In this document: positions 1 to 19,497 of the stretch, piece by piece
Numbering within the stretch: position 1 is the first letter of the stretch
How the letters are laid out: each line of letters begins with the position of its first letter
Translations under genes and position numbers: made by a program
Notes under the pieces: generated by a model
Told to the model about the DNA's origin: nothing
Seen by the model: only the letters and a program-made list of their open reading frames with translations
Database searches by the model: none
Origin: Chromobacterium sp. IIBBL 290-4
GTDB lineage: Bacteria; Pseudomonadota; Gammaproteobacteria; Burkholderiales; Chromobacteriaceae
Assembly (NCBI RefSeq): GCF_024207115.1
Contig: NZ_CP100128.1
Location: forward strand, 4,216,001-4,280,000
Direction: 5' to 3'
DNA: 64,000 nucleotides

Positions 1-723
1 GGCCTGCGGATCAGCATTGCCCAGCACCGCGCATTCGATTTCGCGGCCGACGATGGCTTGCTCGACCAACACTTTGTTGTCGTAGCGGAAAGCTTCGGCC
101 AGAGCGGCTTCAAATTCCTGCTCGCTCCGCGCCTTTCCCACGCCCACCGACGAGCCCTGATTGGCTGGTTTGACGAATAAGGGCAAACCCAATTGAGCGA
201 CAATCTCGGCATAGGAGATTTTCGCGGCCCGGGCGCGTGTCAGCGTCACAAACGGCGCGACCTTGAGCCCGGCATCGCGCAGCAAGCGCTTGGCCACGTC
301 CTTGTCCATGCAGATGGCCGAACCCAGCACGCCGGCGCCGACAAAGGGGATATTGGCCATGCGCAGCAAGCCCTGCAGCGAGCCATCCTCGCCCAGCGTG
401 CCGTGCACGATGGGAAATGCCACATCGATCTGGCCCAAGGGGTGCGCGTCGGCCGCTTTCACCAGTTGGCCATGCCGCTGGCCCGGCACCATGGCCAGTC
501 CCTCGCCCGACTGGCGCAGCGCGATGCGCGCCGGATCGTCGGCATGCTGCAGGAAACTGGAGGGCTGATTGACATGCCAATGGCCCTGCTTGTCCACGCC
601 TATCAGCGTGACCTCGAACTTATCGCCGTCTATCGCATCCAGAATGTTTCGCGCCGACTGCAGCGAAACCTCGTGCTCTGATGACTGGCCGCCAAAAATC
701 AAACCTACCCGGATTTTGCTCAT
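1..723 (-). CDS. ddlA: D-alanine--D-alanine ligase, 5' part (cut by window edge)
   Basis: Cytoplasmic ATP-grasp ligase that joins two D-alanines for peptidoglycan precursor synthesis. The minus strand reads without a stop for 241 codons from ATG at 723-721 to the window edge. The N-terminus has the family signature [20 protein letters not shown], followed by [16 protein letters not shown] and the ATP-grasp segment [17 protein letters not shown]. The run closely resembles the DdlA type (E. coli DdlA as remembered) rather than shorter DdlB. The C-terminal third with the Mg-binding residues lies outside the window. It diverges from the RlmN-like gene. Confidence 0.93.
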
Positions 724-904
724 TGCATTTCAGCGTGAAAGTGGGAGCGGCTATGATATTGCAATAGCGCATCCCGGGCGAGCGCCTGGCGTGGGAGAGC
801 CAAACGATGGGCTGTCGTTTTTCTTCCCCGCGACACACCAGCTTGTTGTACCCTAGCCGCCTTTGACCACGCCGCCTGCCGGCCTCTCCCCGCTTCAGAC
901 TCTC

Positions 905-1954
905 ATGCGCATCCTGGATCTTCACCAAGCTCTTGCCGACATCGGCGCCCGTTCCTGTCATATAGGCCGCATCCAGCGCGCCTGGCTAAAGGGTTTGCCC
1001 CTGGATGCAGGCACCAAGCACCAGAAAAGCGAAGACTATTTCCCGCTGTCGGTGCGGCAAGGCTTGCCGCCCATCGCCGCGCGGGTTGACGGTTTGGCGC
1101 GCGTCCACACCAGCCATCCCGGCGCGGATGGCTCGCTCAGGCTACTGGTGGAGTTGAGCGACGGCCAGATGGTGGAAAGCGTTTTGTTGCCGCGCGATGG
1201 CCTATGCGTCTCCAGCCAGGTGGGCTGCGCGGTAGGCTGCACCTTTTGCATGACCGGCAAAACCGGCCTGCTGCGCCAGGTGGGCAGTGCCGAAATCGTG
1301 GCCCAGGTGGCGCTGGCCCGCCGCATCCGCCCTGTCAAAAAAGTCGTTTTCATGGGCATGGGCGAACCAGCCCACAATCTGGACAATGTGCTGGAGGCGA
1401 TTGAGCTGCTGGGAACGGATGGCAATATCGGGCACAAGAATCTGGTGTTCTCCACGGTTGGCGATCCGCGGGTGTTCGAGCGGCTGCCGCAAATGGCCGT
1501 CAAGCCGGCGCTGGCTCTGTCGCTGCATACCAGCCGCGCCGATTTGCGCGAGCAATTGCTGCCGCGGGCGCCCAAAATCGCGCCGGCCGAGCTGGTGGCG
1601 CTGGGCGAGGCCTACGCCCGGCGCGTGGGCTACCCCATTCAATACCAATGGACCTTGCTGGCCGGCGTCAACGACAGTCTGGAGGAATTGGACGCGGCCA
1701 TCGGCTTGCTGAAAGGCAAATACGGCGTGCTCAATATCATTCCGTACAACAGCGTCGAGGGCGACCACTATCAGCGGCCCACGCCGGAGCGCGTCGAGTT
1801 CATCAAGCGCTATCTGCACGGCAAGGGCGTGCTGACCAAGGTGCGGGACTCCGCCGGGCAAGACGTGGACGGCGGTTGCGGACAGCTGCGGGCGCGCGCT
1901 GCCGACAAAATAGACATCAGCAGGATCCAGCGCCGCGCTCAAGGCAAAACCTGA
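905..1954 (+). CDS. RlmN/Cfr-like radical-SAM RNA methyltransferase, divergent
   Basis: Predicted radical-SAM enzyme of the RlmN/Cfr family, which methylates C2 or C8 of adenine in RNA. The radical-SAM cluster motif is CAVGCTFC, inside CVSSQVGCAVGCTFCMTGKT. MGMGEP follows, and a C-terminal GGCGQL supplies the second catalytic Cys typical of the family. At about 349 residues it is slightly short. It departs from housekeeping RlmN in the segment after MGMGEP (AHNLDN, where LLNL is usual) and in its N-terminal domain, so it is probably a paralogue. A TTG at 863 would add 14 residues; ATG 905 is preferred because MRILDLHQAL begins the recognisable domain. No strong ribosome site is visible for either. 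Confidence 0.8.
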   Translation: MRILDLHQALADIGARSCHIGRIQRAWLKGLPLDAGTKHQKSEDYFPLSVRQGLPPIAARVDGLARVHTSHPGADGSLRLLVELSDGQMVESVLLPRDGLCVSSQVGCAVGCTFCMTGKTGLLRQVGSAEIVAQVALARRIRPVKKVVFMGMGEPAHNLDNVLEAIELLGTDGNIGHKNLVFSTVGDPRVFERLPQMAVKPALALSLHTSRADLREQLLPRAPKIAPAELVALGEAYARRVGYPIQYQWTLLAGVNDSLEELDAAIGLLKGKYGVLNIIPYNSVEGDHYQRPTPERVEFIKRYLHGKGVLTKVRDSAGQDVDGGCGQLRARAADKIDISRIQRRAQGKT

Positions 1955-2446
1955 GCATGCGCGCAGTGCAATCTTTAGGCGGATGATTCCGCCGCCTCCG
2001 TATATCGCCCGGCATTTGAAACCACGCCGAGCGGCAGCTCATCAGGCGCTCTCAAGCTATTAAGGCGCTCAGCCTCCTCGCCTGATTCGCCAATCAGGAT
2101 GCGCCCAGCGCGCAAACATGAGCAGGCCGTCTTTGTCTTCCTCCTCAAACCCATCGCATGATCCGGCATGAATTATCTATTCGCATATAGCTATATACGC
2201 TTCCTTTTCTGGGCATAAGAAAATAAAGCAAAGTGTCTTCCAAGACCCGAGCGCAAAAACATATTCAAACAATATTGATTATTGTTAAATATAAGATCGG
2301 CGACTCTGCCGCGCGCGGCTTTCAAGAGAAATCAGTCAAGCCTTACAATGGAAGTAAATTTTACAAATTGACTGATCAAATTTAAACAAATAATATAAAT
2401 TAGGAAATTAAAATACTTACTGATACTATTTTTATTAGTAATATTC
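1955..2446. other. gene-free, increasingly AT-rich stretch
   Basis: About 490 bases without a convincing gene. A 64-codon minus-strand reading frame (1975-2169) shows no domain, signal or ribosome site. From about 2160 the DNA becomes clearly AT-rich relative to its surroundings, probably the promoter region of the next gene. A short GC palindrome, GCCGCGCGCGGC, sits near 2309. I see no RNA gene. Confidence 0.5.
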
Positions 2447-3175
2447 ATGAAAAAACTCTGGCTCTGCGCATGCCTTTTTATCGCATTCACCAGCCTTGCG
2501 CATACCACGCTGGCGCAGACGCCGATCTTGGTCGACGCGGGCGATATTCCGCCGTTTTCCCATGAGCTGGAGGGGCAGGCCTCAGGCATCGCCGTCGAAT
2601 TGCTGACCGCCGCCGCGCGCTCAAAAAAGCTGCCTATCGAATTCCGATTTCTGCCCTGGCTTCGCGCCCAGAACGACGTCATCACCAATCCAAACCGCCT
2701 CATCATTCCGCTGACCCGCGCGCCGGAGCGGGAGACGCAATACAACTGGCTGACCGAGCTGTTTCGCTATCGCTTTGTGCTGATCGGCCTGGACGCGCAG
2801 CCACCGCGCAGCCTGCAGACAGCCAAGAATCTGCGCATAGGCGTATTGCGAGGCAACCCTGCCGAGGGAATGCTGCGGGCTCAGGGTTTCAAACTATTGG
2901 ATGTGGGTACGTCGGAACAGATCAACGCCCGCAAACTGCTTGCCCATCGCATTGACCTATGGGTGGCGGCGGATCTGGCCGCGCCCTCCATCTTCAAGCA
3001 AATCGGCGGAGATCCCGCCCGGCTGAGAGTCGGCCAGTCCATCGGGCCTACCCGGAAAATCTATCTGGCCGCGTCCCCGACGCTGAGCGACCCCGCCATT
3101 CTGGACTTGGCCCAAGCCATCGACAAACTCAAGTCCACAGGCGAGGCGCAGCGCATCGTCAACCGCTATCGCTGA
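2447..3175 (+). CDS. periplasmic solute-binding protein, family 3, orphan
   Basis: Predicted secreted amino-acid-type solute-binding protein (SBP_bac_3 fold). Residues 1-23 form a signal peptide (MKKLWLCACLFIAFTSLAHTTLA, cleaved near LAQ). The mature protein begins with the two-lobe pattern: ILVDAGDIPPFSHELEG, then GIAVELLTAA, and later NLRIGVLRGNPAEGML. Length (242 aa) is normal. No permease or ATPase gene is next to it, so it may act as a sensor-associated or stand-alone binding protein. The region upstream of the ATG is AT-rich and lacks an obvious Shine-Dalgarno sequence. Ligand unknown. Confidence 0.8.
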   Translation: MKKLWLCACLFIAFTSLAHTTLAQTPILVDAGDIPPFSHELEGQASGIAVELLTAAARSKKLPIEFRFLPWLRAQNDVITNPNRLIIPLTRAPERETQYNWLTELFRYRFVLIGLDAQPPRSLQTAKNLRIGVLRGNPAEGMLRAQGFKLLDVGTSEQINARKLLAHRIDLWVAADLAAPSIFKQIGGDPARLRVGQSIGPTRKIYLAASPTLSDPAILDLAQAIDKLKSTGEAQRIVNRYR

Positions 3176-3239
3176 GCGCATGGCTTCGTCAAGCAGGCGG
3201 CCTGCGTGCTATAGTGGCGTCCCTTCACCCTACGCTGAA

Positions 3240-3581
3240 ATGAAATCGATGAAGCGCCCTCTCCGACTGCTTGCCGCCCCGATGATCCTGGCCGCGCTCA
3301 GCGCCTGCCAGCAGCAAAGCCTCCAGGCCAGCTACCATTGCGACAAGCAAGTCGAATTCCGCTATGACCGCCAGACGCAATCCGTGACGCTGACTCAGGC
3401 GGGGCAGCGCTATCAGGGCTTTATGGATGAGCGGGGATTGCTGACCTGGCCGGGGCGCAAGGCAGACCAGGCGCTGCCGGACAGCTTCTTCATTTCACGC
3501 AAGACGCCCGACCAGATGAAGCTATACGGCGGACTGGCCGGCACGGGCCTGGCTTGCCGGCTCGACAAGCCACAGCCCTGA
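3240..3581 (+). CDS. small putative lipoprotein, unknown function
   Basis: I do not recognise the family. The protein begins MKSMKRPLRLLAAPMILAAL and continues into a lipobox, LSAC, so it is probably lipidated at that Cys. The mature part of about 90 residues has a central YDRQTQSVTLTQAGQRYQG segment resembling the MliC-type pattern of small cell-wall or lysozyme-inhibitor lipoproteins, with a possible disulfide pair (Cys in YHCDK and in LACRL). The reading frame runs upstream to 3180, but only the ATG at 3240 or 3249 gives a clean signal peptide. Its stop abuts the stop of the convergent AraC gene. Confidence 0.7.
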   Translation: MKSMKRPLRLLAAPMILAALSACQQQSLQASYHCDKQVEFRYDRQTQSVTLTQAGQRYQGFMDERGLLTWPGRKADQALPDSFFISRKTPDQMKLYGGLAGTGLACRLDKPQP

Positions 3582-4523
3582 TCACTTTGCCGCGTCTCGT
3601 TTCAGCCGGGAGGGCATGACGCCCAGCGTGCGCATGAAGCTGCGCCGCATTCTTTCCGCATCGCCAAAGCCGCATTCGCGCGCCACGATTTGCAAGGAGG
3701 ACGTGCCGCTTTCCAGCCGCGCCCTCGCCTCCTCCACCCGCAGCCTCTCCACCGCTTTGGCCGGCGGCACGCCCGCCTCGGCTTGAAACAACCTGGAAAA
3801 ATGCCTGGGACTCAGATTGCAGAACGCCGCCATCTCCTCGACATCCAGTTTGGCGGCCAGATTTTGCCTGGCGTGATCCAGCAAGGCTGAGAATCGCCCG
3901 CCGCTGGCCTGCATCTCCAGCATCGAAGAATGTTGCGACTGCCCCCCGGGGCGCTGATAGTAAACCACCAGCCGCTGCGCGCACTGCCGCGCGATGTCGG
4001 CGCCAAGATCCGCCGCGATCATCGCCAGCGCCAGATCTATGCCCGCCGTCACGCCGGCGGAAGTCCATATGCTTCCCTCCCGGATATAAATCGGACGTGT
4101 ATCCAGCGCCACCTTAGGGTAGCGGCGCGCAAATTCGGCCTCGTGCGCCCAATGCGTGGTGGCGCGCTTGCCATCCAACAAACCGGCCTCCGCCAGCATG
4201 AAGGCGCCCGTGCATACGCTGGCCACGCGGCAAGCGCCGGCGGCGGCGCCCAGCCATGCCAGCAAGGCTGGATTCTCGCACGCCTCGATGACGCCGATGC
4301 CGCCAGCCACTATCAGCGTGTCCGGTTCGGGCCCGGCAGTTAGCGCCTGTGCTTGCATGGGAATGCCGGCGGAGCAAACCACCGCGCCGGGCTTGGCTGC
4401 GCGCAACGATACGCTATAGGCGCCGGATCTAAAGCGGTTCGCCGCTTCAAATGCGGCGATGGGGCCGGCGACATCCAGCAGCTGAAAACCAGGATACGCC
4501 AGCATGGCGATATGAAGAGTCAT
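3582..4523 (-). CDS. GlxA-type AraC-family regulator with DJ-1/PfpI domain
   Basis: Predicted transcription regulator of 313 aa. An N-terminal DJ-1/PfpI-like domain (about residues 1-170: IAMLAYPGFQLLDVAGP, VASVCTGAFMLAEAGLLDGK) is joined to a C-terminal double AraC helix-turn-helix (about 210-310: MAAFCNLSPRHFSRLFQAEA and VARECGFGDAERMRRSF). Such proteins resemble GlxA and ArgR/CdhR regulators; the PfpI domain is a sensor rather than an enzyme in the studied cases. It diverges from a stand-alone DJ-1/PfpI gene only about 80 bp away, which suggests that gene is its target. Confidence 0.88.
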   Translation of the reverse strand: MTLHIAMLAYPGFQLLDVAGPIAAFEAANRFRSGAYSVSLRAAKPGAVVCSAGIPMQAQALTAGPEPDTLIVAGGIGVIEACENPALLAWLGAAAGACRVASVCTGAFMLAEAGLLDGKRATTHWAHEAEFARRYPKVALDTRPIYIREGSIWTSAGVTAGIDLALAMIAADLGADIARQCAQRLVVYYQRPGGQSQHSSMLEMQASGGRFSALLDHARQNLAAKLDVEEMAAFCNLSPRHFSRLFQAEAGVPPAKAVERLRVEEARARLESGTSSLQIVARECGFGDAERMRRSFMRTLGVMPSRLKRDAAK

Positions 4524-4604
4524 GTCATGAATTGCCGGAATATTGTCATTTACGCCAAAACTCTAGCCCGCCATGATGACGGGGTCAATCCACTGGAGAT
4601 GGCC

Positions 4605-5297
4605 ATGAACCCTGATTTGCATATGGTGTTTGTGCTTTACCCCGGCGTCACGCAACTCGATTTCACCGGACCGCTGGAAGTTTTGTCGCGATTGCCTGGC
4701 GCTCAATGCTCCTTGGTTTCCACCGCTGGCGGAGAGTTGCAATGCGATGGCGGTTTCTGGGTAAGCCGTGTTCTAAAACTGAGTGAAATTGAGGGCTGCG
4801 ATGTGCTGTGCGTCCCTGGCGGGCTAGGCACCATTCAAGCGATGGAGGATGGCGAGCTGCTGAGCGACATCCGCCGCTTGGCAGGTTCCGCGCGATATGT
4901 CAGTTCAGTCTGCACGGGCTCGCTGCTATTGGGCGCGGCCGGCTTGCTGCGAGGAAAACGCGCGGCCTGCCATTGGGCATGGCGCGAGCATCTGGCCGCC
5001 TTTGGCGCCGAGCCCGACGCATCCCGCGTGGTTCGCGACGGCAATTGTTTTACCGGCGGCGGCGTGACGGCAGGGATTGACATGGCCCTGGCCATGGCGG
5101 CGGAAATCGCCGGCGATGAGTTCGCCCAATCGCTGCAGCTAGGTTTGGAGTACGCGCCGCAGCCGCCGTTCCAGTGCGGCCGTCCCGAGCTGGCTCCGCC
5201 TGCCGTTCTGGCTCGCGTCCAGGCAAGGCTTGATGCGATGAGAGAGCAAAGAGAGTCGGCCATTGTCCGCGCCGCCGCGCAGATGAGCCGAATCTGA
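4605..5297 (+). CDS. DJ-1/PfpI family protein (isonitrile hydratase-like)
   Basis: Stand-alone class I glutamine-amidotransferase-like protein of about 230 aa. It carries LYPGVTQLDFTGPLEVLSRL near the start and the nucleophile elbow SSVCTGSLLLGAAGLL with its conserved Cys. The pattern CHWAWREHL with GGGVTAGIDMALAMAAE is typical of the isonitrile hydratase (InhA)/ThiJ branch. ATG 4605 is chosen because GGAG ends six bases upstream; ATG 4599 would place that GGAG directly against the start. It lies divergently beside a GlxA-type regulator that shares the same domain, so regulation by that neighbour is likely. Actual substrate unknown. Confidence 0.82.
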   Translation: MNPDLHMVFVLYPGVTQLDFTGPLEVLSRLPGAQCSLVSTAGGELQCDGGFWVSRVLKLSEIEGCDVLCVPGGLGTIQAMEDGELLSDIRRLAGSARYVSSVCTGSLLLGAAGLLRGKRAACHWAWREHLAAFGAEPDASRVVRDGNCFTGGGVTAGIDMALAMAAEIAGDEFAQSLQLGLEYAPQPPFQCGRPELAPPAVLARVQARLDAMREQRESAIVRAAAQMSRI

Positions 5298-5303
5298 GCA
5301 ACC

Positions 5304-6047
5304 CTATTCCGGCACGCCATATCCAAAGTCGCGCCAGACCTTCTGCGCATCCTTGCTGAGCAGGAAGCCGAACAGCTGCCACGCTTCCGGGCGCTTGTCC
5401 GCCGGCTTGAGCAAAACCATGGTTTGCCGTATCGGCGGATAGCTGTCGGCGGGCATTTCCACCCAACGTCCTTTATTGCGGAACGCCGATTGCCGCACCA
5501 TGGACTTGGAAACAAAACCCGCGCTGGCTTTGCCGCTGGCGACCCTGTCGAAGACATGCGCGATGTCCGGCGCTTTTTCAATACGCGGCCTCAGGGACTC
5601 GACCAGTTGGTAATGATTCAGGATGAACAAAACCGGCTGGCCGTAGATGGAAGTTTCGGGATTGGGCACCGCGATGCGCCCTTTGGATGACTTCAACCAC
5701 AGCAGCCAATTTTTGCTCGAAAAATCGTTCGATAACGACCACAGCGCCACCCGGCCCAGTGCGTATACCTTTGGCTTGCCTATGCATCGCCCCTGGGAAA
5801 GCAAACGTTTGGGAAATTCCTCGTTTGACGAGAGATAAATCTGATCCGGCGAGCCTTTGGCGATACTGGCAGCCAAAGACACGCCGGGCCCGTAACGCAC
5901 CTCCACCGGTATGCCTGTCGAGGCGGTAAAGCGATCCAGCAATGTCTTCAGCGCCGGCTCGACATTGCTGACCGCCGCGACCCTGACCGGTTCGCCATAC
6001 GCCTGAGATATCAGGCAGCACCAGGCCGCCATTAGCCACTTCGCCAT
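5304..6047 (-). CDS. molybdate-type ABC transporter substrate-binding protein (ModA-like)
   Basis: Secreted binding protein of 247 aa with a signal peptide (MAKWLMAAWCCLISQAYG). Its mature start, VRVAAVSNVEPALKTLLDRF, is the ModA/tungstate-binding pattern, followed by GPGVSLAASIAKGSPDQIYL and the C-terminal AWQLFGFLLSKDAQKVWRDFGYGVP. The usual ADVFLSA element is replaced by DQIYLSS. No modB or modC is adjacent, so the anion specificity and the transporter partner are uncertain. It is convergent with the DJ-1 gene (6 bp between stops). Confidence 0.8.
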   Translation of the reverse strand: MAKWLMAAWCCLISQAYGEPVRVAAVSNVEPALKTLLDRFTASTGIPVEVRYGPGVSLAASIAKGSPDQIYLSSNEEFPKRLLSQGRCIGKPKVYALGRVALWSLSNDFSSKNWLLWLKSSKGRIAVPNPETSIYGQPVLFILNHYQLVESLRPRIEKAPDIAHVFDRVASGKASAGFVSKSMVRQSAFRNKGRWVEMPADSYPPIRQTMVLLKPADKRPEAWQLFGFLLSKDAQKVWRDFGYGVPE

Positions 6048-6164
6048 AGCTCGCCCCGCGCGCCATGTGTTCTAGCTCTGGTTATCGCACAGCCGAGCAC
6101 CCCCTGCCACTTTCCGAGTCCTGGCCACCCCAGACTGCTTGAAGTGGCCAGGGTCTATCGTCCA

Positions 6165-7259
6165 TCAATGGGTTTGCATGAACGGCGGCGCGGCCACCAG
6201 ATTGGAGCGGTTGCCGCTCACCGTGCATTGCGCCACCTGCTGGGCTTGCAATTTGAGCTGATACATCAAGCCCAGCGCGCTATCCAACTGGTTTGGCTGC
6301 CCGTTGAACACCTTGTTCAGGCTGGCCAGCAAGACCTGGTAAGTGCCATAAAAGCGTTGCGCGGCCAAGGAGGCCGGCGTGCCTGGAATGTAATCGCTCA
6401 GCGCGGCATTAGGCAGGAAGTTGTAAATGCGCTCCTGCTCCAAAGGCACCGGCGCGCCGGCATAGGACCAGCCGGACACCGCCTCAGGATCCGGCACCAG
6501 CCGCCGCTCATGGAAAATCTCGCCGAATTTGTAATAGTGGGCGTAACTGCCGTCTCCATCCACCGGCAGGGTGGCTCGCGCCATATCGATGCCCTCGCCT
6601 TGCAGAATGATGGTGTCGATGGCTTGCCGCACGGTCTTGAGATCAACGATATAGCCATTTTCCGGCGCGGTGCGGACCGGCGGGAACCACTTGCTGATGT
6701 CGACCTGTTGCTCCAGCCGCGGATGGGCGAACAGCTCCGGATTGCGCCCGTTTACCGCCTCCATCGCCGCCCAGATCGCCTCGTAGAATTCGCCGATGGA
6801 GCCGAATTCGCCCGGCACGACCGGCGTAGGCTCGGACACCGTCTCGCCGGGAAGAATCTCTCCGGGCTTGGTGACAGGCCGCTCTATCGCCATGAACACG
6901 TTTTTGACCTGGGACGGCGTCAGCGCCGCAAGATCGACCTGCAGATCATTGCCTATCTTGTCCGGCAGCGGTCCTGGGTATTTCAGCGACTGCCCGAGCG
7001 CCACGATGTCCGGATTGCCGCCGATAGCGATCAGCATATTCGCCGCCAGCGTCATGTGCAGCATTTCCTCGGTGACGATGGACTGGATCAGCGCAGCGGC
7101 AACGCGGTTGCTGTCCGCCACAATGGAAAACAAGCCGGTCAAATAAGGCGGGATGGTGGAGAATTCCAGCTCGACCGCCGTGGTCAAGGCGGCTTTCAAG
7201 GCGGCGACATCCGGGCTTTGCCGCAGCGGAGCGATGATGTTCTGTTTGATGCGCAGCAT
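6165..7259 (-). CDS. ferritin-like protein related to the C-terminal half of VioB
   Basis: Predicted di-iron-type ferritin-like protein of 364 aa. The N-terminal helices read LKAALTTAVELEFSTIPPYL and, about 45 residues on, IVTEEMLHMTLAANMLIAIG. These supply the Glu and Glu-x-x-His ligands, and closely parallel the ferritin-like region of VioB (the iminophenylpyruvate dimer synthase of violacein synthesis, recalled from C. violaceum). It begins 29 bp after the gene for the VioB N-terminal-like protein, so both are probably co-transcribed. An AAGGAA sits just upstream of the ATG. The substrate is unknown; violacein enzymes VioA, C, D and E are not in the window. Confidence 0.8.
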   Translation of the reverse strand: MLRIKQNIIAPLRQSPDVAALKAALTTAVELEFSTIPPYLTGLFSIVADSNRVAAALIQSIVTEEMLHMTLAANMLIAIGGNPDIVALGQSLKYPGPLPDKIGNDLQVDLAALTPSQVKNVFMAIERPVTKPGEILPGETVSEPTPVVPGEFGSIGEFYEAIWAAMEAVNGRNPELFAHPRLEQQVDISKWFPPVRTAPENGYIVDLKTVRQAIDTIILQGEGIDMARATLPVDGDGSYAHYYKFGEIFHERRLVPDPEAVSGWSYAGAPVPLEQERIYNFLPNAALSDYIPGTPASLAAQRFYGTYQVLLASLNKVFNGQPNQLDSALGLMYQLKLQAQQVAQCTVSGNRSNLVAAPPFMQTH

Positions 7260-7288
7260 GGTGCTTCCTTTTCAAGAGTCGAGAGCGC

Positions 7289-9358
7289 TTACTTCGCCGG
7301 GCAATCGCCTTTGCCGCCATGGAAATGAGTCAGGCTTTCCTGTTGCTCAGGGCAGGCCTGCCGCTCTCCGCCGCCGCGGGTCGGGCAGCGCTTGCCGAAC
7401 ATGTCCAACATGCTCTTGGGCCGCCCCTGCCCTTCTATCACCTGATTGAAATAAGCGATCAGCGCCCTGCGCTTGCTGCTGGACAGATCGCGCGTCACCG
7501 GCATCTGGTCCGGATCGTCCATCGGCTTTTCCAGCACGAACTTCAAGATGAAGGCGTTGGCGTCGGCCTGTTCTTTCTTGGAAAAATCAAACAAGCCCTG
7601 GCTCATCACCGGGTAGAGATTGGCGTACTGCTGCAGGATGGGCTGCACATCCTCCCAGGTCACCGGATTGGGGACGACATAGGTGGAACGGACCACGATG
7701 GCGTATTGGTCGAACTGCTGCTGCACCGTCGCCGCGCCATTGGGCGAACTGGGCGCGAAGTTGTAGTTGTAATTGAACAGCTGGCCGTCCATGTAATACC
7801 GCGGATAACCCATCTGCGACGGGCCGCTGACGCGTAGGTCCACCCGTCCCCATTCGGAAGTTTCGCCAGCCAGCTGCGCGAAACGGACCTGCTCCGCCGG
7901 CGCGTTGGTGGTGGGCGGCGCGGCCTTGGGCGTGGTTTGCGGCGGATTGTCGGTGGGGCAATCGCCGGTATCCACTTGCGGCGGCTGGGCGGTCGCCTGC
8001 ACGGATACAGGCTGCTTGGCCAAAGGCACGCCGTATTGGGCGACGTAGACCGCCGATACCGTCTCATTGGCGTTGACGTTCGCGTCGGGATAGCCGCCAT
8101 TGGGGTCCAGCCGCAGCGCGAACTCCTCGGCGCGCACTTCCCAGCCGCCCGCGCCTTCGCAGCACAACAACAGCGCGATGCCGGTATTGGGATTGCCGGA
8201 GGTGATCAGCGCCAGAGGCAGCTGCTTAATGGTGGCCTTCAAGGAGTCGGGAATCGGCACCGCGGCGATGCCGCTGCGGCTGAGCAGGCTGGCATTGCTG
8301 ATATCGACGGTAGCGAGCGGCTGATACTGATCAGGCTGCAGATAAGGACTGGTCGGCAGCTCGGTCGAGTTCAGTTGCGCGATGATGAAGGGCTGCTGCC
8401 AGTATTGCTGGTTGGGATCGCCGCTGCTGACCGCATTGGGGTTGCCGCTGCCGCTCCCGCTGGTGACATTCACCTGGTACGAAGTTTCCAGCGTGCTGCC
8501 GGCGGAGTAAGCCAAGGGCAGCGCATTGCTCAGATCGACATACAAGGTGTCGTCGGCGATTTGCGCGCTGAACCAACCGACATTGGGAAAGTAATCCTGC
8601 GCGTTTGGATAGGCCGAGGCCGGCAACAGGCTGGCGGCCGGAATGAAGCGGCGGCCCAGCACGAAGGACGCCGGCTCCCGCTCCGGATAGGCCGGGCCGA
8701 TGGCGCCCAGCACCAGTCCATAGGAGAAAAAACTGTCGCCCAGACTGGCATCGTAGCCATAGGTGCTCATCCGCAGCGACAAGGCATTGCCCTGGCTTTC
8801 GCTGATGGCTTTCAGTTCTTGCAGCAAAGGGCTGTTGATCGCGTCCAGATTCCAGCTCACATTGGTGAGAATGGTCTGCCAGATGGCCGAGGCGGCGCTA
8901 TCGCCGCGCAGATTGCCGACGCGGTTGAACCATAGGTCGCGAAATGGATTGGGCGCGTAATCGCCGCGCATCAGCACCTGGCCATTGGCGGCGCGCAGGG
9001 TGATGGTCTGGCCGTAAATACAGGAGGCCAACTGCCAATCCGGGTCCAGGTCCACCATTTTGCCGGATGGCTGATCGTCGGTATTGCCGACAATCAGCCC
9101 TATGGCCGCGTCTTCGCCCGCGCTGCGGACTTCTTTGCCGTCCGGCCCCAGCGCGGACTGCACGATGCAATTCTTCAATCCGAAAATGCCGGTGCCCAAT
9201 GGATTCCACCAACCATTGAACTGCTGCCCTTCCTCCGGTTTCTGGAAGTAAGGCTCAAAGGTTTGATTGTCGAAATGACGAGGGTCGTTGTTGACGGTGG
9301 AGACATCCGCCTGAAACAGGCCGGAAAACGCCAGGCGCGGATAGTGCAGATAGCTCAT
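7289..9358 (-). CDS. VioB N-terminal-domain-like protein
   Basis: Protein of about 689 aa matching the N-terminal two thirds of VioB in pattern. It starts MSYLHYPRLAFSGLFQADVS (VioB starts with a comparable SILDFPRIHFRG) and ends with YANLYPVMSQGLFDFSKKEQ and MPVTRDLSSSKRRALIAYF, which correspond to the VioB segment just before its ferritin-like domain. In VioB both parts are one chain of about 1000 aa; here they are two adjacent genes. A low-complexity PPQTTPKAAPPTTNAPAEQ linker lies near residue 495. ATG 9358 is chosen because AAGGAG (9366-9371 complement) precedes it by seven bases; the frame runs open upstream to 9505 without such support. Confidence 0.78.
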   Translation of the reverse strand: MSYLHYPRLAFSGLFQADVSTVNNDPRHFDNQTFEPYFQKPEEGQQFNGWWNPLGTGIFGLKNCIVQSALGPDGKEVRSAGEDAAIGLIVGNTDDQPSGKMVDLDPDWQLASCIYGQTITLRAANGQVLMRGDYAPNPFRDLWFNRVGNLRGDSAASAIWQTILTNVSWNLDAINSPLLQELKAISESQGNALSLRMSTYGYDASLGDSFFSYGLVLGAIGPAYPEREPASFVLGRRFIPAASLLPASAYPNAQDYFPNVGWFSAQIADDTLYVDLSNALPLAYSAGSTLETSYQVNVTSGSGSGNPNAVSSGDPNQQYWQQPFIIAQLNSTELPTSPYLQPDQYQPLATVDISNASLLSRSGIAAVPIPDSLKATIKQLPLALITSGNPNTGIALLLCCEGAGGWEVRAEEFALRLDPNGGYPDANVNANETVSAVYVAQYGVPLAKQPVSVQATAQPPQVDTGDCPTDNPPQTTPKAAPPTTNAPAEQVRFAQLAGETSEWGRVDLRVSGPSQMGYPRYYMDGQLFNYNYNFAPSSPNGAATVQQQFDQYAIVVRSTYVVPNPVTWEDVQPILQQYANLYPVMSQGLFDFSKKEQADANAFILKFVLEKPMDDPDQMPVTRDLSSSKRRALIAYFNQVIEGQGRPKSMLDMFGKRCPTRGGGERQACPEQQESLTHFHGGKGDCPAK

Positions 9359-9467
9359 AGACAAGCTCCTTGGTGGGACAGCTTCCATTCGGGCGACTGC
9401 GGCTGCGGCGACATGCTGACAAGCGGTAAGCGCGCGGGACGAAAAGGGACGCGTGGTCAAACAGCAA

Positions 9468-9492
9468 ACGGCCAGCGATTGGCGCTGGCCGT
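9468..9492 (-). promoter_or_regulatory. perfect 10-bp hairpin in the leader of the VioB-like operon
   Basis: ACGGCCAGCG (9468-9477) and CGCTGGCCGT (9483-9492) are perfectly complementary around a 5-base loop. Read on the minus strand the stem is followed by TTTGCTGTTTG, so it resembles a weak intrinsic terminator or attenuator. It lies about 110 bp upstream of the 9358 start, and no minus-strand gene lies immediately upstream that would need terminating. Confidence 0.45.
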
Positions 9493-9702
9493 CGCGGACT
9501 GACATCCGTCAGCTTGCCGTTTCAAACTAGCCCATTGGCCAGGCAAGCCGACCTGTACCGATGGACAGTCCTCGCCGCTCGCCTTTGCCCTCCGCCCGGA
9601 ACGGCAAATCATCATCCACTTCGCGTCCGCCTATACTGAGTTGCAAGCTTTGCATGCGACGGCTACGGAAATGTCTGGGCGGCGAATTGACTATCGGATG
9701 GA

Positions 9703-10602
9703 TTGGGCGTGGAAAATCTGCTCAAAAAGATGTGCTGGCTGGCGGCCCTACTGCTTGCTGTCCGCGCAGGCGCAGTGGAAGTGGACACGAAAAACATCAC
9801 CTGGGTTTTGTCCGATTGGCCGCCTAATTTCATCGTGGTCAATGGACTGCCCACCGTCGGACAAAACGATGTCTATCTCAAGCTGCTGATGGCCAGGTGG
9901 CCGGAAGCCCGGCACCGCTTTGAGGTCATGAGCACGGCGCGCAGCATATTGGCGCTGCAGAAAGGCAGCCAGGTCTGCCGGCCCAATCTGATTCCCACGC
10001 CCGAGCGTGAAAGATTCGCCTATTTCACGCTAACCCACCTGCAGATGCCGCTGCGAGTAATCATCCGGAGTGACAAGGCCGCCATGGCGCCGCGGGATGC
10101 GCGGGGCGATGTCCTGCTGGGAAAACTGATCGCGCAGCCTGCCTTGAGGGGTATCGCCGCGGCAGGCCGCAGCTATACGGCCGAGATTGACAAGCTATTG
10201 GCGGGCCCGCGCAACGCCAACGTCAAGATGCAGCCCAACCTGCCCTCCAACGAAGGCTTGTTCAAGCTGCTGGAGCTGGGCCGCGCCGACTACACGCTGG
10301 ACTACGAACCCAATTTCAATTACCGGGCCGAGCAGGTCCTCCAGGCCGGCCTGACCAACCTGCCCTTGGCCGGCTCTAAACTGATACCTGTCGGCATTGC
10401 CTGTCCTCGCACGCCATGGGGAAGACAAGCCATCGTCAAGATAGACTCACTGCTGGCGGAAGCCGTGAAAGATCCCGCTTACAGAGAAGCGCAGACGCGC
10501 TGGCTCTCCACCGCCACCATGAGCCGCTACAAGGCTGAGCTGGACCGCTTTTACCGCTGGCGGACCCACCCGGCGCCGCCGGGTGAGTATCCGCCGCCCT
10601 AG
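9703..10602 (+). CDS. periplasmic solute-binding-like protein (TIGR02285 type), orphan
   Basis: Predicted secreted protein of about 299 aa, related to family 3 solute-binding proteins and resembling the TIGR02285 group. The signal peptide is hydrophobic at CWLAALLLAVRAGA, and the mature chain starts ITWVLSDWPPNFIVVNGLPT. A central stretch, SQVCRPNLIPTPERERFAYF, is characteristic of this subgroup. The start is uncertain: the 9703 codon is TTG, GTG 9709 and ATG 9730 are in frame, and none has a strong ribosome site. No transporter partner is adjacent. It diverges from the VioB-like operon and converges with a chemoreceptor. Confidence 0.72.
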   Translation: MGVENLLKKMCWLAALLLAVRAGAVEVDTKNITWVLSDWPPNFIVVNGLPTVGQNDVYLKLLMARWPEARHRFEVMSTARSILALQKGSQVCRPNLIPTPERERFAYFTLTHLQMPLRVIIRSDKAAMAPRDARGDVLLGKLIAQPALRGIAAAGRSYTAEIDKLLAGPRNANVKMQPNLPSNEGLFKLLELGRADYTLDYEPNFNYRAEQVLQAGLTNLPLAGSKLIPVGIACPRTPWGRQAIVKIDSLLAEAVKDPAYREAQTRWLSTATMSRYKAELDRFYRWRTHPAPPGEYPPP

Positions 10603-10615
10603 CGGCGTCAGGGGG

Positions 10616-12250
10616 CTAAACCTGGAACTGGGACACCGACTGTCTCAAATTGCCAGTCACTTCCTCTATCCGCACGATGCTTTCCGAAGCCTGGGTGGCC
10701 GCCACCGCGTTGCCGGACGCCACTTGCGCGATCTGCTCCACATGGCGGGCGATGTCCTGGCTGGCGATGCCCTGCTCTTGCAAGGCGTGCGAGATATCAT
10801 TGACCACCTGCACCACCTGGCTCGCGCTGCCGTGGATCTGCTGAATCAGCTCCCCGCCTTGCTCGGCCAGTTGCAGGCCGGTTTTCACCTTGGCCACGGT
10901 TTCGCTCATGTTCTGCCGCGACAGGTCGGAGCTGGCTTGTATCTCGGCGATCATGTCTGCGGTTTGCTCGGTGGCCTTGGCGGTGCGTTCCGACAGCTTG
11001 CGCACCTCGTCGGCCACCACTGCGAATCCGCGGCCGCTTTCCCCCGCGCGCGCCGCTTCGATGGCGGCATTCAGCGCCAGCAGATTGGTTTGGTCCGCTA
11101 TGTCCTTGATCACCTGCATGATGTTGGAGATGGTGGCGGTTTTGGTCGCCAGATCGGCGATGGCGGATTCGGTGACATCCACCGTCTGGCTGATGTGCTG
11201 CATCTCGGCCACCGCTTTGGCGATGACCTCGCTGCCGGAGGCGGATAACTGGCCGGAGTCCTGCGAAACGGAACGCGCATCTTTGGCGTGCTGGGCGATG
11301 TGATTGATGCTGACGGTGAGCTGCTCCACCGATGCCGCCATCGCCGCCGCGCCTTCGCTCTGGCCTTGAGAGTTGTCAGCCACCATCCTGGCGCCATCCA
11401 CCACATCGGCATTCAAGCGGCCCAGCTCATCGGCGTCGCGGATGATGTCGCCGACCAATTGGCGCAGCTCAAGCTGCATCTGGCGGATATGCTCCAGCAG
11501 GCTGCCGCGTTGCGCGGCGCCGACCTGGATTTCCCGGTCCAGCTTGCCTTCGGCGATCTCGCGCACGATTTGCACCGCCTCGGCCGGCTCCACCCCCAGT
11601 TCGCGCATCACGCTGCGGTACACCCACCACCCCAGCGACAAGGTCACCACCACAAACAGCAGCAACTGCCCGCCCACGCTCAATAACTGCGCCATCAGGA
11701 TCGCATTGATGTCGTCAACGAACAGGCCGGTCCCCACCACCCAGCCCCAGCGCGGCGTGAGCTGGGCGTAAGCGATCTTTTCCTGCGGCTGATCCGAACC
11801 CGGTTTGTCCCACATGTAGCGCGTAAAGCCCTTGCCGCCGCCTTCGCGCAACATCTTGTCGAAAAGATCGCCCAGGTTTTGCCCCTTGGCGTCCTTCACG
11901 CTGTGCATGTCCTTGCCGATCAGCTTGGGATTGGCGCCGTGCGCCAACCATTTCAAATCTTTGTCGAGCGTAAAAAAATACTCTTTGCCGTCAAAGCGCA
12001 GCTTGCTCAGCTCCTGCATCGCCACCCGTTTGGCCTCCGCCTCGGGAACCAGGCCCGCGGCGGCTTGCTCCTCGTGCATGGCGATCAGGCTCGCCGCGTT
12101 TTCCACTTGGCTGCGCACCAAGTCCTGCCTGTCCGAAAACAGCTGCCGTTGCAGAGCATGAATCAACAAGGCGCCCAACACGCAAACCAGCAAGATGGCG
12201 CTGACCGTTTGCAGCAGCAAGCGCATTTTCAGAGAAATGGTTTTCGCCAT
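10616..12250 (-). CDS. methyl-accepting chemotaxis protein with single Cache sensor
   Basis: Inner-membrane chemoreceptor of 544 aa. TM1 is near residues 9-30 ([20 protein letters not shown]). The periplasmic part (about 35-185) has the sCache_2 pattern [20 protein letters not shown] and [15 protein letters not shown]2 follows near 188-212 and then HAMP. The cytoplasmic signalling domain holds the conserved hairpin tip [20 protein letters not shown] and [13 protein letters not shown]. Ligands of this sensor class are often small organic acids, but nothing here identifies one. No pentapeptide CheR tether is seen at the C-terminus. Confidence 0.92.
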
Positions 12251-12303
12251 TCAAGTCACACCGGCTGAAATAAAGCTCTAACAATAGCGCATATATTTAT
12301 GTT

Positions 12304-12319
12304 GATTCAATATTGAATC
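12304..12319. promoter_or_regulatory. perfect 16-bp palindrome GATTCAATATTGAATC
   Basis: A perfect palindrome in the AT-rich interval (12251-12519) between the divergent chemoreceptor and the dimethylformamidase-like gene. A related CAATATTGA occurs again about 40 bp to the right. It could be a regulator site serving either gene. It does not fit the FNR consensus spacing. The rest of the interval shows no gene. Confidence 0.4.
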
Positions 12320-12519
12320 TTGACTTTATTGACATTGGTCATTTGCACCAATATTGACTATCTAGACGAAAACAAATAATTGGCGGCAAGAAGGGTTAAA
12401 CCAGGCAAAAGTCGCAAATAACAAAGCCTGCCTTTTGCCAAGCCTGCCGCTGGCGTGCTTGAATCACGTCATCTGCCTGTCACACGCGCTTTTGCGCCAC
12501 TGCACTCCGAGATCAAGCT

Positions 12520-14952
12520 TTGAAAAACTACAATCGCCGGACCGTCCTGTCCGGAATGATCGCCGCCGCGCTGGGCGCGAAAACCTCATTGGCCGTTGCC
12601 AACACCGCAAGCCGCAGCCTGCAGCTCGAAATGTACACCGACGCCAGTTCGGTCGAGCAAGGCGAGACGCTCACTTTCTTTGTCAGGGCCAGCTATGCCG
12701 TTGCGGTTAAGTTGGACCTGTACCTGATCGGCAGCGCGGAAACGCATGTCGCCAGCTTCCACTTGAACGCCGAGGCGCAAGCCACCCGGGCCCGCCCCTA
12801 TCGATACGGCGCGGCCTGGTCGCCAAGCGCCGCCATCTCCACCAGCGCTTACGCGCCTGGCCTGTACATGGCGAAAGTCCATGCCGACCCGCTTCATCGC
12901 GCGAGCGCCTACGTCAGCTACTTCCTGATCCGGCCCCGCGAGCCCGGAGCGCTGTCGAAAATCCTCTTCCTGTGGCCCTTCGCCACCTCGGAGGCCTACA
13001 ACAACTGGGGAGGCCGCTGCCTGTATTCCGACATCTCCCGCGACGGCCTCGCCTCGCCGGTGATTTCCAATCAGCGCCCCAATCCTACGCTGGCGGCCGA
13101 CGTGGCCAGCAATCTCCCGCTGCTGCAGTTCACCCTGAAGCATGGCCTGCCTGTCGAGCATTGCTCCAGCTACGATCTGCACTTCAATCCGGCCTTGCTG
13201 AGCCATTACCGTTTGCTGGTGATTTTTGGGCATGATGAATACTGGTCCTGGGAGATGCGCCAGGCGGTCGAAGCGTTCAAACAGGCTGGCGGCAATATCG
13301 CCAACTTCAGCGGCAATACCTGCTGGTGGCAGGCCCGATTCGCCAAGACCGGCCAAGGCCTGCAGATGACCTGCTACCGCACCGTCGCCGGCATCGATAC
13401 CAAAAGCTATCCGAATGAGGACAATTACGCCCAGGATCCGATCTACAACGACGGCAGCGGGAGAAACCATCTGGCCAGCATCGAGTGGTATCGGGTGCCG
13501 GTGTCCGGGTCGGCAGCCGCCGCCACCTATAAAGAAAGCCGGGATAACAATCTGCCCACCAGCGGAGATCAGGCTTTCTACCCGGAAAACATCATGCTGG
13601 GCGTCAGCTTCCGCTGCGGCTTCATCGCCGGCGCCAATAAGACCCTGCCCAAACCCTTGCCCTACTCCCTGGCCGACGGCGCCTTCCGGCACTGGATTTT
13701 CGCCAACTGCGAGCTCCCTGACGGCGCGACCTTCGGCGAACTTGCCCGGGTGATAGAAAACGAGTGCGAGGTCGATGGCGGCCGGCCCGGCCAAGGCGGC
13801 AGCCCCCGCAACTTCCAAGTGCTGGCGAACTGCCCTTCAACCGATAATTCGCATCATGAGGGCGGCTGGTTCTCAGAGGCCACCATGGGCATCATGGTGG
13901 GCAAGGGCAGCGTATTCAGCGCATCGACCAATCATTGGGCGCGCAACTTCCAGCGGGAAGCGACAACCCGCCACATCACCCTCAATGTCATGCGGCGTCT
14001 GAGCGCCCAGCGCCGCATCCATTCGCTGACCTCGCTGGGCAATGCGGTGATCGCTCTGTTTTCCGACGGCGGCGCCATGATCACTCGCCGGCCCGCGGCG
14101 CTGGCGTCGCAGGATGCCAGAATCTGGTATGACGGCGCCAAGCCCATGCTGTCGGCGCTGAGCGCTCCGCACGGGGTTTACACCGAGCTTGCCGGTGGCA
14201 GAATTTATTTCACCCCCGCCTCGGCAATCGCCGCTCAGCTAAGCGCGGTCTCAGGCCCAGCCGCGCCGCTTGATTTCTGGGATAGCGAACTGGTCTATGC
14301 CGATGGCCGGCCGGTGCTGGCTTGGGCGTCTTGGGCTGACGGCGTCTTGACCGCTTTCAGCGACGACCGCGTCTGCTGGAGCCCGGACGGCCTCAATCTG
14401 GGCGGCGGCGGAAATACCATCGCCGTCGACGCCGGCCCTTCGCCCATCAAGCATATCTGGATAGCCGCCGGCGCGATTTATATCGCCTGCGCCGATCACA
14501 GCTGCTACCGCGCCACAGATCCGGCCAATTTGCGCCAGACGCTGGTTTACCAGGGCAAGGTTCCAATTCTCAATATTGTCGGCTGGAGCCATGGCGCCGT
14601 TTGCGTCCACTTTGCCGATGGACGCATCGCATACAGTCCGGATGGCGTCCGGCTTGATGCGGGCCGCTTGCTAGCCGACAGCCTGGCTCTCAAACCGCTG
14701 GCGATATCGGCTTCGCCAACCGGCTTGCGCGTCTGCTTCGACGGATTGGTTACCGACAGCCCCGACTTGAAGAACCTAGGCGGAGGCGGCAGCACCCGAG
14801 TGCTCTATCAAGGCAACACTTCCGCCGCCAGCATCCAGGCCCTCCACGGCGGGCTGCTGACCCTGTTCAGCGACGGCCGCGCTTACTGGAGCCCCGATGG
14901 CCTGCACCTGGGCGGCGGCGGCAATAGCGTGCTTGCCTATCTCCCCAAATAA
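12520..14952 (+). CDS. secreted N,N-dimethylformamidase beta-subunit-like protein with C-terminal repeats
   Basis: Protein of 810 aa. Residues 5-30 carry a twin-arginine signal (NRRTVLSGMIAAALGAKTSL), which requires the TTG start at 12520. Residues about 145-500 match the large subunit of dimethylformamidase (DMFA2_C type): SEAYNNWGGRCLYSD, VIFGHDEYWSWEMRQAVEAF and GGNIANFSGNTCWWQARF. The C-terminal 300 residues hold a recurring unit, with SPDGLNLGGGG near 617, SPDGVRLD near 703, SPDLKNLGGGG near 745 and SPDGLHLGGGG near 787, suggesting a beta-propeller-like binding module. No small-subunit (DmfA1) gene is adjacent. DMF-family enzymes are usually cytoplasmic, so export is unusual. Actual substrate unknown. 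Confidence 0.75.
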   Translation: MKNYNRRTVLSGMIAAALGAKTSLAVANTASRSLQLEMYTDASSVEQGETLTFFVRASYAVAVKLDLYLIGSAETHVASFHLNAEAQATRARPYRYGAAWSPSAAISTSAYAPGLYMAKVHADPLHRASAYVSYFLIRPREPGALSKILFLWPFATSEAYNNWGGRCLYSDISRDGLASPVISNQRPNPTLAADVASNLPLLQFTLKHGLPVEHCSSYDLHFNPALLSHYRLLVIFGHDEYWSWEMRQAVEAFKQAGGNIANFSGNTCWWQARFAKTGQGLQMTCYRTVAGIDTKSYPNEDNYAQDPIYNDGSGRNHLASIEWYRVPVSGSAAAATYKESRDNNLPTSGDQAFYPENIMLGVSFRCGFIAGANKTLPKPLPYSLADGAFRHWIFANCELPDGATFGELARVIENECEVDGGRPGQGGSPRNFQVLANCPSTDNSHHEGGWFSEATMGIMVGKGSVFSASTNHWARNFQREATTRHITLNVMRRLSAQRRIHSLTSLGNAVIALFSDGGAMITRRPAALASQDARIWYDGAKPMLSALSAPHGVYTELAGGRIYFTPASAIAAQLSAVSGPAAPLDFWDSELVYADGRPVLAWASWADGVLTAFSDDRVCWSPDGLNLGGGGNTIAVDAGPSPIKHIWIAAGAIYIACADHSCYRATDPANLRQTLVYQGKVPILNIVGWSHGAVCVHFADGRIAYSPDGVRLDAGRLLADSLALKPLAISASPTGLRVCFDGLVTDSPDLKNLGGGGSTRVLYQGNTSAASIQALHGGLLTLFSDGRAYWSPDGLHLGGGGNSVLAYLPK

Positions 14953-14984
14953 CGCGTTCGCCATCCGTCTGTGCGGAAATGCGC

Positions 14985-15013
14985 TTGACAACATATCTTA
15001 CGATATATATCTT
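14985..15013 (+). promoter_or_regulatory. promoter for the YqjI-like gene, embedded in palindrome
   Basis: TTGACA at 14985-14990, 17-bp spacer, then TATCTT at 15008-15013 (4 of 6 to consensus). The spacer and -10 lie inside the 58-bp palindrome, so a bound repressor would block RNA polymerase. Confidence 0.6.
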
Positions 15014-15049
15014 ACGATACGTATCGTAAGATATATATCGTAAGATATG
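14992..15049. repeat. 58-bp perfect palindrome, probable operator
   Basis: The bases 14992-15020 are the exact reverse complement of 15021-15049, centred on GATAC/GTATC. Each arm contains two copies of a unit reading ATATCTTACGAT (left) or ATCGTAAGATAT (right), so the site could accept two or more dimers. It overlaps the promoter and reaches the first base of the GGAGG ribosome site (15049-15053) of the PadR/YqjI-like gene. Confidence 0.85.
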
Positions 15050-15058
15050 GAGGCAATG

Positions 15059-15685
15059 ATGAAGCATAGACACATCTGCAATATGTGGACGCACCCCTTG
15101 GCCTGGCTGCGCGCCAACGGCATGGAGAGGCGGCGCGGCGGCCATCGCGGCGGCGGCGACGGCGAAATGACGCGCGGACGCAAGTTCGGCGCCGAGGATC
15201 TGCAACTGCTGCTGCTCGCATTGATCAGCGAGCGTCCCGCGCACGGCTATGAGCTGATCAAGGAGCTGGCCGCCCGCTCCAATGGCTACTACAGCCCCAG
15301 CCCGGGCATGGTCTATCCCGCCTTGACCTATCTGGAAGAACTGTCCCAAGTCACCGTCGAGGCGCATGGCAACCGCAAAAGCTACTCCCTCGCGCCGGAG
15401 GGAATGTCCAGGCTGGATAGTCAGCGCGAGCATGTGGATCTAATGCTGGCCAAGCTGCGCCATGTCGGCCGCAAGATGGAATTGGCGCGCCGCGCCTACG
15501 CCGGCGAGGAGATCGGCGAGCAAGGCGCGGCCGGATGGACCAAGGAAATGATAGAGGCCCGCCGCGCGCTCAAGCATGCCTTGCTGCTGCGGGACGACGC
15601 CGACGAGGCTGAACAACAGCGCATCGCCGCTATTTTGCGCCGGGCGACAGCGGAAATCATCGGCGAAGCCATGCCGGGCTGTTGA
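15059..15685 (+). CDS. yqjI: PadR-family metal-responsive repressor, YqjI-like
   Basis: Predicted repressor of about 208 aa. The winged helix (about residues 45-125) contains LLLLALISERPAHGYELIKE and YYSPSPGMVYPALTYLEE, the PadR core most like E. coli YqjI. The N-terminal extension has His and Cys residues (MKHRHICNMWTH, then GGHRGGG), a reduced version of the His/Cys-rich nickel-binding tail of YqjI. The next gene encodes a siderophore-interacting reductase, the partner that YqjI represses in E. coli. ATG 15059 is chosen: GGAGG at 15049-15053 is five bases upstream. Codons at 15047 and 15056 are in frame but poorly spaced. Autoregulation through the 58-bp palindrome is likely. Confidence 0.85.
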   Translation: MKHRHICNMWTHPLAWLRANGMERRRGGHRGGGDGEMTRGRKFGAEDLQLLLLALISERPAHGYELIKELAARSNGYYSPSPGMVYPALTYLEELSQVTVEAHGNRKSYSLAPEGMSRLDSQREHVDLMLAKLRHVGRKMELARRAYAGEEIGEQGAAGWTKEMIEARRALKHALLLRDDADEAEQQRIAAILRRATAEIIGEAMPGC

Positions 15686-15755
15686 CATACAAACGGCGCG
15701 CCGCCCGGCCAGGCCGGACTCGCCGGCGAAGCCAAACCAATCAAAGGAGCTGGTT

Positions 15756-16550: not shown

Positions 16551-16656
16551 TCGTCAATTCGCCTAAGCTTCTTCGCCCACCGCGGCATTCAACTGGATGT
16601 CGCGGGCATCGCGCGCCGCGTAACGTCCACGCCCTGCTCCAGCCTCACAGGGCATA

Positions 16657-17790: not shown

Positions 17791-17887
17791 AAATAGATTT
17801 TTTATAAGGTTGGATATCAAGCAAGGGCCGTTGCCCATCACCCTGGAGGCCAGGGTGATCGTGCCCACCGCTTCATCGCAAGATGCT

Positions 17888-18868: not shown

Positions 18869-18902
18869 GACCTCTCCTCTATTTAAGATGCGCAACAAAT
18901 CG

Positions 18903-19362: not shown

Positions 19363-19438
19363 CCCCACCCATGAAAATGCAAATGGCATTCATATTGATG
19401 CATAAAGCTGAGAATAACAAGCCCGCTGAACCCGGCAT

Positions 19439-19475
19439 AAAAAAACGCCGCCCGCCCATCAGGGCGAACGGCGCT
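19439..19475 (-). terminator. intrinsic terminator of acnB
   Basis: Stem CGCCG..CGCCC (19446-19457) pairs with GGGCG..CGGCG (19462-19473) around ATCA, with an internal 2-base mismatch. On the minus strand it is followed by a run of seven Ts. It lies just after the acnB stop. Confidence 0.8.
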
Positions 19476-19497
19476 ACCAAGGTAAGCAGTTGGGCTA

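Follow-up and report, generated by a model that had tools for sequence, protein, structure and literature searches.

Is the pair of adjacent genes considered here an enzyme of the VioB kind encoded in two pieces, and if so, what would it act on? The genes lie in a 64,000-nucleotide stretch of the Chromobacterium sp. IIBBL 290-4 genome (contig NZ_CP100128.1, positions 4,216,001 to 4,280,000; here called the window) and encode the proteins P0002 and P0001. A preliminary description made from the sequence alone took them for the N-terminal and ferritin-like parts of VioB, the iminophenyl-pyruvate dimer synthase that couples two tryptophan units in violacein biosynthesis, and proposed a two-subunit enzyme with another substrate or an ancestral form of VioB. 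Its coordinates, protein lengths (689 and 364 amino acids [aa]), and 29-bp spacing were all confirmed. We find that the pair is real and widespread, that it represents an as yet unnamed form of VioB-like system encoded by two genes, and that it is tied, both by position and by statistics, to ebo gene clusters, which may export small molecules.

As a single sequence, P0002 matches the NCBIfam VioB model (TIGR04492) weakly (20.3 bits, E = 1e−4, against a curated cutoff of 1,250 bits). This comparison was too weak to count alone as proof, and profiles were used instead. P0001 does not match TIGR04492, P0002 matches no Pfam family, and sequence searches of the PDB with P0002, alone or as a profile, returned no relative, nor did a solved relative of the VioB N-terminal half turn up in PDB searches. 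A profile of the P0002 family (40 rows, P0002 and 39 homologs, from 210 found and the best 120 listed) was aligned with a VioB-side profile (30 rows out of 92 matches of a VioB search). The two agree with a probability of 99.8 and an E value of 6.9e−29 over residues 1 to 648 of P0002 and 1 to 585 of VioB, at 18% identity between the two proteins in this half. The P0002 profile matches the VioB N part alone at E = 3.6e−30 and the C part at 0.35, and decoys were negative (0.8 for the reversed profile and 0.03 to 0.74 for five column shuffles). By these profile comparisons, the very check that the preliminary description had called for, P0002 is a homolog of the N-terminal half of VioB.

P0001 is a PF12902 ferritin-like protein (E = 1.3e−51, 176 bits against a gathering cutoff of 22.3). 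Its search of the PDB by sequence returned two ferritin-type chains (3hl1 at E = 5e−12) and one chance-level match, and the profile of the ferritin partners matches the VioB C part at E = 1.4e−28, which bears out the second gene as the ferritin-like part. Because the N half matches the N part of VioB and the ferritin partner its C part, the order of the halves is the same as in VioB. Six ligand-type residues, four Glu and two His, are common to the pair and VioB. They are invariant in all 60 rows of pairs or fusions (58 + 2), in 10 of 10 VioB-side rows, and in the four solo PF12902 rows of the same genome. Two divergent rows stand outside the 60: L055_13310 has all six residues, and L041_3, a fragment that stops at a contig end, keeps the last three and is gapped at the other three positions. 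Ferritin-type diiron sites are made up of four Glu and two His. With its homologous N half and a ferritin-like C half carrying the common residues, the pair fits a VioB superfamily in the broad sense. It is not a VioB equivalog as TIGR04492 defines one, since its score is far below the cutoff and its two chains stand in place of one chain of ∼1,000 aa, and no vio genes lie nearby.

Relatives were collected by scanning GTDB genomes for two conserved motifs; 132 matched, and the best 80 were kept. The ferritin-like gene adjoins the N half in 78 of the 80. The other two are a fused chain of 936 aa (L088) and a locus that runs into a contig end (L050). Rows of the trees span the Pseudomonadota, Bacteroidota, Cyanobacteriota, Myxococcota, Actinomycetota, Acidobacteriota, Planctomycetota, and Chloroflexota. 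Eight plasmid records matched as well, and the pair was present in all seven that were opened, annotated as a hypothetical protein and a ferritin-like protein. The median intergenic gap is 21 bp over 87 pairs. Across the same number of pairs, distances in one half track those in the other (r = 0.885, uncorrected for phylogeny, against at most 0.09 in 500 permutations), and the halves agree by type in six of six comparisons. Natural single-chain fusions of both parts are found in L088 and in L023, a locus of the same genome as the window. Because the genes are kept as a two-gene unit, diverge to a matching degree, and have natural fusions, the two-subunit enzyme that was proposed is likely, as judged from sequence.

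The link to ebo emerged from the fetched flanks of each locus (up to 10 kb). At least three ebo proteins are encoded beside 27 of the 80 loci, in 17 of 43 genera or metagenome-assembled genome (MAG) groups, and all six in 25. The nearest relatives of the window pair, in C. vaccinii (L031, 70% identical) and Jeongeupia (L032, 74% identical), have all six ebo genes alongside. The window copy differs from them in being unlinked: no ebo protein is encoded in positions 1 to 20000 of the window, and the sole EboE gene of the genome lies ∼0.3 Mb away. A second split pair in this genome (L024) is followed by the ebo cluster.

The genus shows the same association. Fifteen of 19 genomes match the pair-family profile, and in three of these (G371, G375, and G376) the match is VioB itself, at 34 to 36 bits. 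Matches above 500 bits occur in 12 genomes, and EboE is encoded in the same 12 (Fisher test, 2e−5, uncorrected for relatedness). In the 11 other genomes of this group, N-half and ferritin genes adjoin each other in every stretch around a match above 500 bits (18 of 18). Eleven of these stretches, one per genome, continue into ebo genes, so that with L024 a pair is contiguous with ebo in 12 of 12. A pair of the window type, as told by score (>830 bits), is present in 11 genomes; it lies within the ebo cluster in three, and in eight, that of the window included, it lies elsewhere and another pair occupies the ebo cluster. VioB exceeds its cutoff in 6 of the 12 genomes with pair and ebo and in 3 of the 7 others. 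Several of these genomes are also among the 80 loci, so the two surveys overlap and are not independent. In a sample of the class (n = 369), EboE was found in 15 genomes, the pair family in 5, and both in 3, including the genome of the window (Fisher test, 5e−4); the two other co-occurrences (G174 and G233) are weak matches on contigs other than that of EboE. In G233, a 3.9-kb contig of its own carries a divergent N half close to a PF12902 gene, and linkage to ebo is possible there. In a sample of the phylum (n = 398), EboE was found in three genomes, the pair family in three, and both in two, again including that of the window; G555 has ebo without the pair.

Trees of both halves bear on how the window copy came to stand apart. 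They were built by quick searches after removal of 32 redundant loci, are unrooted with long branches, and carry Shimodaira-Hasegawa approximate likelihood-ratio test (SH-aLRT) support only. In the N tree (78 rows), the window protein groups with the downstream members of tandem pairs in an 11-row clade (support of 100), and the ebo-linked L024 groups with the upstream members in a 5-row clade (support of 99). The ferritin tree has the same two clades, with supports of 100 and 98. The tandem pairs, with both types in one ebo cluster, belong to three Oxalobacteraceae, Solimicrobium, Pseudoduganella, and Massilia. These topologies suggest that the window and L024 pairs are the members of a two-pair ebo cluster that have dispersed. 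A long branch separates the pairs from the VioB side, split-length forms occur on both sides of it (P0210 to P0212 are N halves of split appearance inside the VioB side), and the fewest changes between fused and split forms number four in the N tree and two in the ferritin tree; these trees are compatible with an ancestral split form of VioB as well as with a later split. Among the rows of the VioB-side profile are an EspD-like chromopyrrolic acid synthase (P0196, so named) and Tjp2 (P0186). The comparison with chromopyrrolic acid synthases covers these relatives; they are fused chains of ∼1,000 to 1,150 aa, and in the N tree the pair lies across the long branch from them.

The preliminary description placed the pair outside a violacein cluster, which holds for the window but not for the genome, where an intact vioABCDE cluster lies ∼0.6 Mb away. 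It contains a full VioB (1,596 bits); VioC, VioD, and VioE score above their NCBIfam cutoffs, and VioA reaches 531 against a cutoff of 600. Because the genome has its own vioABCDE and the pair is linked to ebo, a substrate other than that of VioB, as had been suggested, is likely on this genomic evidence. PF12902 is found at eight places in the genome altogether. The genome also has a VioB-like paralog of 906 aa, the fusion L023:8830-11550 (C1:665829-668549), with the same two parts in one chain. It coexists with two split pairs and VioB, and the ferritin tree makes it sister to L088, the fusion from Chloroflexi. At L027:5661-9843, a PF12902 protein is encoded directly upstream of genes for a LodA-like cysteine tryptophylquinone (CTQ) oxidase and a LodB-like flavoprotein, an arrangement like that of fungal PF12902 proteins, which differ from P0001 in being reported beside lodA-like genes (PMC4417212). 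At L025:1493-12128, a 415-aa PF12902 protein adjoins a GMC oxidoreductase, and a LodA-like oxidase lies 5 kb off.

The neighborhoods were also surveyed for an amino acid oxidase, a partner that the preliminary description had proposed to look for, and as a rule there is none. LodA-like oxidases (L016 and L100) and VioA-like oxidases (L095 and L100) each lie near 2 of 87 loci by phmmer, and a phmmer search with VioA found none in positions 1 to 20000 of the window. A linked amino acid oxidase as the general partner was rejected, there being one near 3 of 87 loci. Amino_oxidase likewise accounts for 2 of 137 neighbors in a Pfam tally, one of them at L100. In that Hymenobacter locus (L100:8179-17998), a flavin amine oxidase gene lies directly 5′ of the pair and LodA/LodB-like genes lie downstream, which makes it a candidate locus for an oxidase-coupled pathway. 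No third partner common to the pairs without ebo was found among the 137 neighbors, which come from 27 of the 53 such loci; the commonest neighbor family is glyoxalase-like, with six members (among the first 25 of 116 families). Single glyoxalase-like proteins directly follow the pair in several Bacteroidota, and two-domain proteins with ABM and glyoxalase/VOC domains are encoded at the edge of clusters with ebo and the pair (L031:18961-19773 and L042:9115-9909). VOC/glyoxalase and ABM domains are common in aromatic tailoring.

How might the pair work? We propose that P0002 and P0001 are two subunits of a VioB-type oxidase, either never fused or split later. The P0001 site most likely holds an O2-activating diiron center, and P0002 most likely packs on P0001 and binds the substrate. 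Its substrate would be an aromatic compound, perhaps indolic, which the pair would oxidize or couple on the way to a metabolite; the ebo machinery, which this genome encodes at another place together with the second pair, would process or export that metabolite. A two-subunit, O2-using diiron enzyme of the VioB type, acting on a precursor handled by ebo, is the reading that we consider somewhat probable. The EDB cluster, which contains a full ebo cluster with signal-peptide open reading frames (ORFs) (PMC6282210), is reported to convert external tryptophan into indoles, which act as repellents (review PMC9655573), and a homolog of EboC prenylates quinolines (PMC9235831).

Several observations weigh against this proposal. 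Fewer than three ebo genes are nearby in 53 of the 80 relatives, as in the window, and 39 of these are in loci of at least 20 kb. None of 14 ebo stretches in the class sample has the pair (seven reach at least 19.5 kb, and contig ends truncate the rest); on this count we rejected a core ebo role for the pair, and since sampled ebo clusters elsewhere lack it, the pair is an accessory module. The co-occurrence of pair and ebo in the genus ignores the relatedness of the genomes, and shared ancestry alone gives much of the correlation between the halves. The cofactor is a further concern. Published accounts treat VioB and chromopyrrolic acid synthases as proteins that contain heme (PMC12114271 and PMC10851217), and none of the His and Cys residues conserved at 90% in the VioB N domain (H89, H123, H194, and C532) is kept in the P0002 family, so that the chemistry of the pair may differ from that of VioB. 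Finally, a draft genome (G500, Pseudomonas by its protein's matches) encodes two divergent VioB-N-like proteins of 602 and 789 aa within an ebo cluster complete in its six proteins and has no PF12902 match, which indicates that a VioB N domain need not work with a ferritin partner.

The absence of these His and Cys residues also bears on a first alternative, in which the pair performs heme-dependent imine coupling on tryptophan-derived imines just as VioB does and is merely split in two. Homology over the full length of both halves fits such an enzyme, as do the LodA-like or VioA-like oxidases at L016, L095, and L100. If VioB binds heme through the four residues, however, the pair would be without heme; moreover, amino acid oxidases are rarely linked to it, and VioA and VioB are already present in the genome. 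We regard this alternative as improbable. It is less improbable, though still unlikely, that the pair carries out an O2-dependent modification of an aromatic compound without forming a dimer, as a hydroxylase, a desaturase, or an enzyme of ring cleavage or oxidative rearrangement would. To our knowledge, the characterized enzymes with the whole two-domain layout are dimerizing enzymes (PMC10851217), which speaks against such a reaction. In its favor, the site is of the generic type with four Glu and two His, VOC/glyoxalase and ABM domains recur among the neighbors, the EboC homolog takes quinolines (PMC9235831), and the EDB products named in the review are not dimers (PMC9655573). That the pair is a relic of gene fission, a nonfunctional or iron-storage remnant of a VioB-like gene, would agree with the lack of recognizable pathway genes beside the window copy. 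Both frames are intact, however, the ligand-type residues are conserved, and the pairing extends across several phyla with matched divergence of the halves, so that we consider a relic very improbable.

The G500 cluster (L151) deserves separate mention. Its 602-aa protein has 229 relatives; the named ones among the best 120 listed are from Pseudomonas species and one Azomonas and are annotated as hypothetical or, in two cases, as Ig-like. L151 also has two ORFs with leader-like starts (by eye) and resembles the EDB cluster by description, with its full ebo set and signal-peptide ORFs (PMC6282210); by this analogy, it is possibly an EDB-type cluster. A far-reaching extension would make the VioB N domain and its ferritin-like partner a large family, as yet unnamed, of diiron enzymes with two subunits and no heme that makes the scaffolds of undiscovered aromatic (indole-derived) ebo metabolites, including nematode repellents of the EDB type, with VioB and the chromopyrrolic acid synthases as a fused side branch and a ferritin-less N-domain branch in EDB-type clusters. 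Taken jointly, these clauses are speculative and unlikely to hold together.

Coordinates are collected in Table 1. The longest ORF of P0002 (7289-9505) begins earlier than the ATG at 9358, which is preceded by AAGGAG (by eye) and whose M1 is shared by all 40 rows of the family alignment; by eye, a Shine-Dalgarno-like sequence precedes both genes. A terminator-like hairpin 3′ of P0001 was not supported (z = −1.5). The neighbors in the window appear unrelated: a solute-binding protein (SBP) gene downstream on the same strand, and a divergent, weakly SBP-like gene and a methyl-accepting chemotaxis protein gene upstream. Farther off, positions 12520-14952 encode an 810-aa protein with a DMFA2_C domain (E = 3e−55), an RR-type leader, and C-terminal repeats (the last two by eye), and positions 3582-5297 encode two DJ-1/PfpI proteins in divergent arrangement, one fused to an AraC-type regulator domain.

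Table 1 Positions of the split VioB-like genes, the candidate metal ligands of P0001, and the N-domain genes of G500
Feature	Coordinates	Strand
P0002, 689 aa, homolog of the VioB N half, first gene of the pair, type I in the tree	7289..9358	-
P0001, 364 aa, PF12902 ferritin-like partner, second gene of the pair	6165..7259	-
Gap from P0002 to P0001, 29 bp, with AAGGAAG (by eye) before the P0001 ATG	7260..7288	-
Codon of P0001 E32, candidate metal ligand, equivalent to VioB E611	7164..7166	-
Codons of P0001 E65 to H68 (ExxH), candidate ligands E65 and H68, equivalent to VioB E671 and H674	7056..7067	-
Codon of P0001 E126, candidate metal ligand, equivalent to VioB E727	6882..6884	-
Codon of P0001 E222 in QGEG, candidate metal ligand, equivalent to VioB E805	6594..6596	-
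Codon of P0001 H241, candidate metal ligand, equivalent to VioB H818	6537..6539	-
Two VioB-N-domain-like proteins in the ebo cluster of G500	L151:4642-11127	

Among the papers listed by literature searches on VioB-like or PF12902 proteins, none was on such a two-gene pair, and among those listed by a search on ebo, none combined an ebo term with "ferritin-like" or "VioB." The word "ferritin" does not occur in the ebo papers examined, including PMC6282210 and PMC9235831. In the papers examined, scytonemin producers are the only organisms for which a function of ebo is demonstrated, with less direct evidence for EDB (PMC6282210 and PMC9655573). The putative two-gene oxidase, conserved and placed next to ebo in 17 of 43 genera or MAG groups, offers a concrete gene set for the study of ebo. 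For VioB itself, the split form would allow the reaction to be studied with two subunits purified separately, and it predicts diiron for the metal site that the pair and VioB have in common.

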